The notes beneath the pieces were generated by a model. It saw only the letters and a list, made by a program, of their open reading frames with translations. It did not search any database and was not told where the DNA came from. From Gammaproteobacteria bacterium (GTDB taxonomy: Bacteria > Pseudomonadota > Gammaproteobacteria > Pseudomonadales > JAUIET01), in contig JAUIET010000015.1 of NCBI GenBank assembly GCA_030429735.1, forward strand, positions 1-64,000: 64,000 nucleotides of DNA, given 5' to 3'. The position numbers and the translations under genes are program-made. Of the stretch, positions 12,835 through 15,810 are shown piece after piece. Each line of letters opens with the position of its first letter. The stretch's first letter is position 1.

Positions 12835-12914
12835 GAGTCGCCGGTAGTGAGTTGATAGTTGCGCCCAATATAGGCGAGCGCGCAGACTGGTACAAGGTCG
12901 ATGAAGACTTTAAT

Positions 12915-14468
12915 ATGCGCCATCACTTTGTCAGAGCGTTGAACGCGATGCTGAACAACTATCTTAAAAAAATACTGCAGGCACCGGTGTACGATGTGGC
13001 GGCCCAAACGCCAACCCAGTTTGCTCCAAAACTGTCAGCCAAGCTTGATAACCAGGTTTTTCTCAAGCGGGAGGATCTGCAACCTGTATTTTCGTTCAAA
13101 TTGCGAGGCGCCTACAACTGCATGGTTCAGCTGGATGCGGCCAGCCGTGCGCGTGGCGTGATCACAGCATCGGCTGGTAATCATGCGCAGGGAGTTGCTT
13201 TGGCAGCAAAAAAGCTGGGCATTAAGGCCACAATTGTTATGCCGCAGACCACGCCAGCGATCAAGGTGGATTCTGTGCGTGCTCTTGAAGGCAAGGTGGT
13301 ACTGCATGGCGATACCTATGATGAAGCGTTCGCGCATGCCCAGACCCTGGCCGCTAAGCGCGGTTTGCGCTACGTACATGCCTATGATGACCCGGATGTT
13401 ATCGCAGGTCAGGGCACGGTCGGTATGGAAATTCTGCGCCAGGTAAGCAGCCAACTGGATGCGGTGTTCGTACCTGTTGGTGGCGGAGGTTTGTTGGCAG
13501 GCATAGCGGCTTACGTAAAAAGCGTGCGTCCAGAGGTTCGGGTAATTGGGGTAGAGCCGGAAGATGCTGCGTGCTTGCATGCAGCACTTGAAAAAGGACG
13601 CCGGGTCACACTGTCGCATGTTGGATTATTTGCAGATGGCGTCGCGGTAGCGCAAATTGGCAAGGAGCCATTTCGAGTGGTGAAACACCTTGTTGATGAG
13701 GTAGTGACCATCAGCACCGACGAAATGTGCGCAGCGATCAAAGATATTTTTGAGGAAACCCGCAATATCTGCGAGCCTGCGGGAGCGTTGGCATTGGCGG
13801 GCTTAAAAAAGCATGTCCAGCAGACAGCCTGCAGTGGTCAAACACTGGTGGCGATAAACAGCGGCGCGAATACCAATTTTGATCGACTTCGTTACATCTC
13901 GGAGCGTACCGATGTGGGCGAACAGACTGAAGCGGTGCTGGCAGTTACCATCCCCGAGCGAGCTGGAAGTTTTCGAGCGTTCTGCAAAGCGATTGGTAAG
14001 CGCAACATCACCGAGTTTAACTACCGCTACAGTGCGAATGGTGACGCGCATATCTTTGTCGGCATCAAACTCGCGCCCACCAGTGATGATCGCCAGCAAC
14101 TACTCCAGCAATTGCGCAAAAAAAAGTATCCGGTTGTTGATCTCAGTGATGACGAAATGGCCAAATCCCATATTCGCTACATGGTCGGTGGGCGGCCACC
14201 GGCACCGGCAGCGGCCGATGAGCTACTCTACCGGGTGAGGTTTCCGGAGCGCCCCGGTGCCTTGCTTGCATTCCTGAACGGTCTTGAGCCACGCTGGAAT
14301 ATATCCTTGTTTCATTACCGCAATCACGGCGCAGCGTACGGTCGAATTTTGCTCGGTTTACAGGTGCCAGCAAGTGAGCGGAAGGAATTTGCACGGCGCA
14401 TCCATGCAAGCAAATACGACTACGTTGAAGAAACACACAATCCGGCCTACAAGTTGTTTCTTAGCTAG
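12915..14468 (+). CDS. ilvA: Threonine dehydratase, biosynthetic
   Basis: 517 aa from ATG 12915. It deaminates threonine to 2-oxobutyrate, the first step to isoleucine. The PLP lysine is K62 in FSFKLRGAYN. This start gives the same lysine number and nearly the same length as E. coli IlvA (514 aa), which supports it over the TTG at 12852 or the ATG at 12948. VGGGGLLAG is the PLP-phosphate loop. Two ACT-like regulatory domains follow, near 335-410 (IPERAGSFRAFCKAIG) and 430-505 (FPERPGALLAFL), so isoleucine feedback is expected. It is divergent from rpiA, with about 80 bp between the starts. Confidence 0.95.
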   Translation: MRHHFVRALNAMLNNYLKKILQAPVYDVAAQTPTQFAPKLSAKLDNQVFLKREDLQPVFSFKLRGAYNCMVQLDAASRARGVITASAGNHAQGVALAAKKLGIKATIVMPQTTPAIKVDSVRALEGKVVLHGDTYDEAFAHAQTLAAKRGLRYVHAYDDPDVIAGQGTVGMEILRQVSSQLDAVFVPVGGGGLLAGIAAYVKSVRPEVRVIGVEPEDAACLHAALEKGRRVTLSHVGLFADGVAVAQIGKEPFRVVKHLVDEVVTISTDEMCAAIKDIFEETRNICEPAGALALAGLKKHVQQTACSGQTLVAINSGANTNFDRLRYISERTDVGEQTEAVLAVTIPERAGSFRAFCKAIGKRNITEFNYRYSANGDAHIFVGIKLAPTSDDRQQLLQQLRKKKYPVVDLSDDEMAKSHIRYMVGGRPPAPAAADELLYRVRFPERPGALLAFLNGLEPRWNISLFHYRNHGAAYGRILLGLQVPASERKEFARRIHASKYDYVEETHNPAYKLFLS

Positions 14469-14537
14469 TCTAAAAATCCATCATTCTGATTGTTGATTGC
14501 ACTCTTAACGTTAAATCTAGAATATTTCGCTAAATAA

Positions 14538-14565
14538 TTGTGTGATATTCACATTTTGGTATACT
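14538..14565 (+). promoter_or_regulatory. Promoter with internal operator-like repeat, first micro-membrane gene
   Basis: TTGTGT and TATACT are separated by 16 bp, and the start site expected near 14572 lies about 35 bp before the ATG at 14608. The spacer contains the inverted repeat TGTGATATTCACA (14541-14553). The arms pair perfectly around three bases, and this is the kind of position where a repressor would sit. It is not a standard CRP site, because the spacing between arms is 3 rather than 6. Confidence 0.5.
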
Positions 14566-14607
14566 GCCCTACCCAATAGAGACGTGGTTTAGGGCAGGAC
14601 AATAACA

Positions 14608-14763
14608 ATGCAAAGGCGACCTGATTTTTTAACAGTGCTTGTAGTGCTCTTCGGACTGGGTGTGGTCATCACTGGAGTGAGTGCCAGCCAGCCAAAGACA
14701 ATCGATATTCCAAACGCCAGTCAAATGCCTGGTATCGTGGCCGAGTACAACTTCCGCAACTGA
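14608..14763 (+). CDS. Micro membrane protein A, unknown family
   Basis: 51 aa. The N terminus is MQRRPDFLTV, then a hydrophobic helix at about residues 8-25 ending in VVITG. A polar tail follows, with a QPKT segment and ending EYNFRN. A purine-rich site (AGGGCAGGA) and its own promoter precede it. It resembles the 29-aa product at 14934-15023 in the same spacing: MQ-x2-PD-x2-TV-x3-LF-x2-G-x-V-x-T. Two such products in one gap are unlikely by chance. I do not recognise a named family. A one-helix inner-membrane protein with a short cytoplasmic N terminus is the simplest reading. Confidence 0.7.
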   Translation: MQRRPDFLTVLVVLFGLGVVITGVSASQPKTIDIPNASQMPGIVAEYNFRN

Positions 14764-14933
14764 AGCTCTTACAATCGCAGCCCAAATAGCGGCTGCTGAA
14801 ACGTGACGCGCCTCACAGTTCAGGCGCTACCCCCTATAAACGCTTGCATGATTTTTGCTCATTAGCCGTGGCCTGTCTAGGTTTAAAGAGTAACAGCACA
14901 ATTCACACCCTGAACTCCCCACAGGTGATAACA

Positions 14934-15023
14934 ATGCAGGCCAAACCCGACATCGTAACCGTAGTGATAGCTCTATTTGTAATTGGAACTGTGTTAACTG
15001 CTACGGTTCATGCATTTTCGTAA
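14934..15023 (+). CDS. Micro membrane protein B, paralogue of A
   Basis: 29 aa: MQAKPDIVTV, then a hydrophobic helix to about residue 25, ending in HAFS. A strong ribosome site AGGTGA sits 5 bases before the ATG, and both genes share the bases ATAACAATGCA around the start. It aligns without gaps to the first 25 residues of the 51-aa protein and lacks its polar tail. Its last 30 bases overlap the 3' end of the opposite-strand cyclo-ligase gene. The 170 bp between the two genes hold two small hairpins, at 14777-14796 and 14808-14827. The function is unknown. Confidence 0.65.
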   Translation: MQAKPDIVTVVIALFVIGTVLTATVHAFS

Positions 15024-15602
15024 GCCCGATTCGGTAATGTGCCAATCGAGCCGCAGATCCCATTTTTCTCTCGGTAACACTCCAAACCCGGCTTGCTGGG
15101 ATTGATGCGCGACCCCCACCAGTAACGGCTTTCGTCCAGGCGCATTGCGTTTAAAGGCAAAGCACCGATCGTAGAACCCGCCGCCCATGCCCAGGCGCAC
15201 CCCTTGCGCATCAAATGCAACCAGTGGCAGGAACACCAGGTCCAGTTCAGCGGGTGCAATTAAGCGTCTGTGTGAAAATGCAGATTGAGGTTTTAGCGGA
15301 GTGTCTTGTGTGGCACCGAGGACATCCAGTGACGCAAAGCGCATGCACTTGCCGTGAATGACTGGTACAAAAACGCGTTTACCTCGCCGCCTCAAAGCGT
15401 GAATTAAAGGCAGTGTCCCGACTTCCCCGTCAAACTCCAAATACACCGCTACGTTTCGTGCGCAACTGTGTCTGTCCAGAAGTGGTTTGGCATGGCGGGC
15501 TAGCAGCCAGGCATGGCGCCGCTGCACGGAGGGGCTAAGCGCGCAACGAGTGCTGCGAAAATGCGCACGCAATTGTCGCTTGGCATTGGCTGCAGTATTC
15601 AT
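14994..15602 (-). CDS. fau: 5-formyltetrahydrofolate cyclo-ligase
   Basis: 202 aa, matching the YgfA/FAU family. It converts 5-formyl-THF to 5,10-methenyl-THF with ATP and so salvages a stable folate form. The N-terminal basic helix (KRQLRAHFRSTR) is typical. YLEFDGEVGT contacts the folate, and LGMGGGFYDR near residue 137 is the family glycine-rich signature. It lies directly downstream of the 6S RNA on the same strand. This is the conserved ssrS-ygfA arrangement, in which the RNA and mRNA can share one transcript. Confidence 0.95.
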   Translation of the reverse strand: MNTAANAKRQLRAHFRSTRCALSPSVQRRHAWLLARHAKPLLDRHSCARNVAVYLEFDGEVGTLPLIHALRRRGKRVFVPVIHGKCMRFASLDVLGATQDTPLKPQSAFSHRRLIAPAELDLVFLPLVAFDAQGVRLGMGGGFYDRCFAFKRNAPGRKPLLVGVAHQSQQAGFGVLPREKWDLRLDWHITESGLRKCMNRSS

Positions 15603-15629: not shown

Positions 15630-15810
15630 TAATGCCCCAATACACCGTTAAGCAGTGTGGCCCTTGAACCGAAAGGTTCAAGGCGGTGGCCTCTGTAATA
15701 GATCGGGCTTCCCGTCGTGCGGGCCTGCGCTCCCCTATTCGCTAGAAACCCCCTGGGTATATAGAATCGGCTCGAGGACGAACTGCATCGCGTATGTACC
15801 AGGGCACCCT
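15630..15810 (-). ncRNA. ssrS: 6S RNA
   Basis: About 180 nt, between zapA and the cyclo-ligase gene, the standard 6S position. The conserved hairpin is present: CCTTGAACC, a short loop, then GGTTCAAGG (minus strand, 15661-15683). The 5' GTGCCCTGGTACA (15806-15794) pairs with the 3' end around 15631-15645 (GGGGCAT side) to make a closing stem of about 13 bp. 6S RNA mimics an open promoter and holds sigma70 RNA polymerase in stationary phase. A -10 element TATACT lies at 15819-15814. Ends are estimated from the stem and the promoter. Confidence 0.92.

Follow-up and report, generated by a model that had tools for sequence, protein, structure and literature searches.

Single-span microproteins such as CcoM, KdpF, AcrZ and YohP form a class in which several members serve larger inner-membrane complexes. 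CcoM is a 36-aa subunit of the cbb3 oxidase of Pseudomonas stutzeri (PMC10433244). MgtR of Salmonella, a 30-aa peptide (PDB 2mc7, sequence in PMC6813294) encoded in mgtCBR downstream of mgtB, promotes the FtsH-dependent turnover of MgtC (PMC6813294), and acts on a membrane protein through a small-residue helix face (an Ala-coil formed by A10, S17 and A24). In E. coli K-12, ibsC, which encodes a 19-aa membrane toxin, lies together with sibC between fau and serA-rpiA (L181:2852-2992 and 2891-2950). The chromosomal neighborhood zapB-zapA-ssrS-fau-EVE, with its zapA-6S RNA-fau-EVE unit and with rpiA, ilvA, ygfB, pepP and ubiH nearby, has been described in PMC7641849, and it is at this locus that the family reported here resides. 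The text of that paper contains none of the terms small protein, small membrane, transmembrane or microprotein, and the small gene therefore appears to have been overlooked there.

The window, by which we mean the whole stretch of 64,000 nucleotides that was analyzed, carries two small genes in surroundings made up of rpiA, ilvA, fau, 6S RNA, zapA, ygfB, pepP and ubiH, the last three names being assigned from position and translation. A gap of 525 bp separates the end of ilvA (14468) from the low end of fau (14994), and contains two frames that start with ATG. The features of the locus are as follows.

12852..14468, + strand: ilvA, threonine ammonia-lyase (TIGR01124), upstream neighbor of the small genes
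14528..14566, + strand: predicted promoter/operator of the first small gene; 38 of its 39 bases are the same in the sister genome
14596..14599, + strand: likely ribosome-binding site AGGA of the first small gene, from sequence, 8 bases before the ATG
14608..14763, + strand: first small gene, 51 aa, MQRRPDFLTVLVVLFGLGVVITGVSASQPKTIDIPNASQMPGIVAEYNFRN; ATG start, basic N-terminus, PD, one transmembrane helix, polar tail
14923..14928, + strand: likely ribosome-binding site AGGTGA of the second small gene, from sequence
14934..15023, + strand: second small gene, 29 aa, MQAKPDIVTVVIALFVIGTVLTATVHAFS; ATG start, same helix, without the tail
14994..15602, - strand: fau (ygfA), 5-formyltetrahydrofolate cyclo-ligase (TIGR02727, E 2.2e-37, and synteny), convergent neighbor
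15630..15808, - strand: 6S RNA (ssrS), Rfam RF00013, 92.6 bits
15843..16154, - strand: zapA, PF05164, E 4.4e-21

The preliminary description of this DNA had placed the two frames in a common register, and it was correct in doing so: over their first 22 residues both proteins share, without a gap, the pattern M-Q-x2-P-D-x2-T-V-x3-L-F-x2-G-x-V-x-T, so that P5, D6, G18 and T22 are present in each. Plausible ribosome sites were found where it had claimed them, including the AGGTGA of the second gene, and the polar tail that it assigned to the longer frame is borne out, since the first protein consists of the helix followed by such a tail. The shared ATAACAATGCA that it noted stands at the start of both frames in the window, but the sister genome retains only the copy belonging to the first gene. 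Judged from their shared pattern, the two frames are paralogs that arose by tandem duplication within one family. Tail-less copies also occur elsewhere, in tandem in G069 and alone in G046 (L022), and the tailed and tail-less types may therefore both be old.

Comparison with the sister genome gave a pS of 0.77 and a pN of 0.25 for the first gene (pN/pS 0.33, falling to 0.23 for the first 27 codons), and a pS of about 1 and a pN of 0.12 for the second (pN/pS 0.12), although silent sites are saturated in this comparison and the ratios are therefore approximate. The pattern was lost when the frames were shifted, and when the same substitutions were placed at random 5000 times, replacements were never as few. 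The ratio of silent to replacing changes, which had been suggested as a check, thus shows changes that preserve the frame and are mostly silent. Among Pseudomonas sequences, pN/pS was 0.10 over codons 2-14, a segment not covered by the search pattern, and codons 24-28 gave 0.06; values from within the pattern are biased by the search and were left out. Strong purifying selection acts on both frames of the window.

A search of 57 relatives with a single sequence found similar frames, nearly all of the better matches lying beside fau. Profile A1, built from 23 sequences and run against 294 genomes of the window's order, matched 167 of them at E<=0.1 and 131, representing 63 of 118 genera, at E<=1e-4, and some genera of the order had no detectable copy. 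A reversed profile of the same composition and hydrophobicity gave zero matches in the same order, and the window proteins themselves score 46-69 bits. When a 9-residue pattern was applied to a collection of named genomes, 503 stretches were recovered and 480 were confirmed as relatives; the best 80 of these 480 come mostly from Pseudomonas (P. fluorescens, P. syringae, P. fragi, P. chlororaphis and others), and also include Azotobacter vinelandii, Stutzerimonas and one metagenome bin related to the window's genus. These names point to Pseudomonadales as the window's order. Beyond that order, some other Gammaproteobacteria also carry the family at this locus.

Neither the window proteins nor the 23 relatives scored above a curated cut-off in Pfam or NCBIfam; matches to DUF3040 (0.08) and LapA (0.05) were at chance level, and a match of a single member to GspG (1.8e-4) was judged to reflect a hydrophobic helix. 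Searches of open papers with the peptide strings found nothing. The real but unnamed family that the preliminary description suspected is thus supported by homologs in hundreds of genomes, and the lack of homologs in related genomes that would have spoken against it was not encountered; the family is undescribed as far as our searches reach, without a name or a model in the libraries searched, and some members may stand in RefSeq as hypothetical proteins. The short length of the frames and the absence of a Pfam or NCBIfam model are what one would expect of chance open reading frames, but we give that explanation next to no credence, since it is already refuted by the homologs and by the selection on the frames, and the decoy control and synteny also speak against it. 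The earlier argument that random frames would not agree in this way is accordingly sound, chance being excluded by the homologs, the zero-match reversed decoy and the codon pattern.

The strongest new fact, and one that was invisible to the preliminary description, is the fixed convergent neighborhood with fau, 6S RNA and zapA. In 100 test loci (80 named loci plus 20 from among the lower-ranking profile matches), all 101 matches were convergent with fau and within 900 bp of it, and an earlier set of best hits agrees, with one locus lacking a fau match. The window genes are likewise convergent with fau and next to 6S RNA and zapA, and 6S RNA was confirmed in five loci of the Pseudomonas (fau/EVE) type. 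The gene on the far side varies: it can be ilvA or rpiA (L180), whereas Pseudomonas, Azotobacter and others have an EVE-domain gene there, pointing away from the small gene. In Pseudomonas (L063, L064, L079, L086) the small gene is therefore embedded in the zapA-6S RNA-fau-EVE unit, antisense to it, in the interval from fau to EVE, and in the window the second small gene overlaps the 3' end of fau on the opposite strand with its last 30 bp. Work with fau/EVE deletions or transcriptomes in Pseudomonas may consequently disturb a gene on the opposite strand that has gone unseen.

This constant convergence, the 30-bp overlap and the position within the Pseudomonas unit would all suit a small gene that serves mainly as a cis-antisense device against fau, with transcripts that exclude each other and a peptide of secondary importance. 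We consider such a device quite unlikely, because purely antisense function does not need the selection that acts on the amino-acid sequence, and the intergenic stretches flanking the second gene show no conservation. A combined reading, in which a core membrane microprotein is encoded antisense to the 6S RNA-fau(-EVE) unit, the two are produced in a mutually exclusive manner, and the peptide tunes a membrane complex linked to growth phase, is unlikely in our estimation.

Members of the family begin with M-x2-[KR]-P-D, continue into a single transmembrane helix that has a G-x3-[TS] face, and end in a polar tail that is variable. The check on conservation of PD came out clearly, with 120 of the 121 distinct members carrying the motif; the residue before it is K or R in 95%, and, counted from P, G occupies +13 in 96% and T or S occupies +17 in 99%. 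An ATG start was found in 114 of the 121 and an SD-like sequence in 108, and the median length is 48 residues (range 29-73). Positions +6, +10, +13, +17 and +21 (L, F, G, T/S and Q) share one face of the helix, including the G-x3-[TS] step, which is a common helix-packing motif. For the first protein, AlphaFold2 predicts one main helix over residues 7-26, capped by PD and with pLDDT about 97 over residues 11-20, a predicted single helix being compatible with both a stable membrane protein and a cleaved signal peptide. The basic N-terminus leads, by the positive-inside rule, to a predicted N-in/C-out topology with the N-terminus cytoplasmic and the tail periplasmic.

A basic n-region and a hydrophobic core are also features of secretory signal sequences, and in some members the helix ends in an SPase-like A-x-A or V-x-A (VSA, VHA); moreover, longer proteins elsewhere carry this N-terminus ahead of a domain that looks exported. 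The possibility that the genes encode a cleaved signal sequence and a short exported peptide, and not a membrane protein, nevertheless seems very unlikely to us. Signal peptides do not usually have an acidic residue immediately ahead of the core, as the family does in its near-invariant D6; cleavage would leave about two residues of the second protein, and many members, such as those of Pseudomonas with TTGYAQSLW, have no clear site.

Of the described systems, MgtR is the closest working analog, and all that it appears to share with the family is the N-terminal xPD motif and the architecture: it is a single-helix, N-in/C-out regulatory peptide of the same size, and its start, MNRSPD, fits M-x-R-x-P-D in register and recurs exactly in one family member (L012). 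Unlike the family, MgtR has no G-x3-[TS], and its gene lies in mgtCBR, whereas the window genes lie beside fau. It reached E 0.89 in a PDB profile search and 12.7 bits against the family profile, a score that comes mainly from its first six residues and that shuffles of the remainder attain in 17% of trials; the similarity of the helix is not significant, and homology is thus not supported beyond the N-terminus. CcoM, KdpF, AcrZ and YohP are single-span microproteins like the family, and no sequence relation to them was seen in Pfam, NCBIfam and PDB profile searches.

The E. coli ibsC/sibC pair resembles the family in place and orientation, being a gene for a tiny hydrophobic peptide that is convergent with fau on the rpiA side, and this raises the question of whether the family is its counterpart, a type I toxin with an antisense-RNA antitoxin. 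We regard this as highly improbable. IbsC has no PD and no sequence similarity to the family, and its 0.1 bits against the family profile, compared with 12.7 for MgtR and 46-69 for the window proteins, led us to reject homology. According to PMC7192591, IbsC is still toxic when frameshifted, whereas PD, G and T/S hardly vary in the family. Nor does the family resemble mobile toxin modules, being mostly present once and at a constant locus from genus to genus. An Rfam scan of the window returned no match besides 6S RNA and hence no antisense RNA family, though one of a new kind may exist. Two unrelated tiny membrane peptides thus occupy one fau-convergent locus, ibsC/sibC in E. coli and the microprotein in the Pseudomonas group.

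We consider it probable that both window frames encode single-pass inner-membrane microproteins, duplicated in tandem, which bind a larger membrane protein through their conserved face. The face formed by L11, F15, G18 and T22 of the first protein would pack against this larger inner-membrane protein, as conservation and spacing lead us to infer, and the near-invariant cytoplasmic K/R-P-D cap would also contact it. Packing of this kind could modulate the assembly, activity or turnover of the putative partner, as MgtR, KdpF and CcoM do for theirs. The kind of molecule is known, in that single-span regulatory microproteins have been described, but the family itself is unnamed despite relatives in hundreds of genomes of the Pseudomonas group and a position adjoining genes as well studied as 6S RNA, fau and zapA. 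Its near-invariant P, D, G and T/S are ready-made point mutants, and its function is directly testable in P. fluorescens and A. vinelandii, genetically easy hosts that carry the family.

With respect to transcription, the near-consensus promoter claimed at 14538-14565 is weak in its hexamers, TTGTGT (14538-14543) matching at 3 of 6 positions and TATACT, after a 16-bp spacer, at 5 of 6, and a consensus promoter scan did not list it. It does have an extended -10, TGG-TATACT, at 14557-14565, and 14528-14566 differs from the sister genome at a single position, against a background in which silent codon sites are saturated. Because of the extended -10 and this identity, the promoter is very likely real, the argument being conservation and not consensus. 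The inverted repeat said to lie in the spacer is present (TGTGA-TAT-TCACA, 14541-14553), but overlaps the -35. In contrast to the first promoter, the region upstream of the second small gene is not conserved in the sister genome, and since the analysis supports neither a promoter nor a terminator between the two genes, both are probably on one transcript from the conserved promoter. Between them, at 14775-14828, are two strong hairpins without a T-run (GCAGCC..GGCTGC and GCGCC..GGCGC) that are not conserved in the sister genome and are possible processing or stabilizing elements.

The 17-mer containing the palindrome has a single exact copy in its own genome, and near copies showed no excess (8, versus 6 in a reversed control), so a regulon operator was rejected. 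CRP was rejected as the binder because 3 bases and not 6 separate the arms, and a hairpin in the 5'-UTR covering the ribosome site was rejected because folding was weaker than in shuffles (z +2.1). Neither the palindrome nor the conserved promoter elements were seen in upstream regions beyond the genus. Upstream of the homolog in L024 and L019, two genomes of another family, there is a CRP-like site (GTGATCTGGATCACA in L024).

In other Gammaproteobacteria, the N-terminal module of the family (RKPDLLxVLxxxVGLGVVxTxxxQA) also forms the start of proteins that are longer, about 110-160 aa, and encoded at other loci (L159, L163-L169, L152 and L160; for example L174:5605-5949, L173:6087-6563 and L172:5849-6325). 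These proteins are encoded near transaldolase-like genes or a ksgA-like gene, and their C-terminal part ends in FLGxxxRW. The module is possibly a signal-anchor common to two families.
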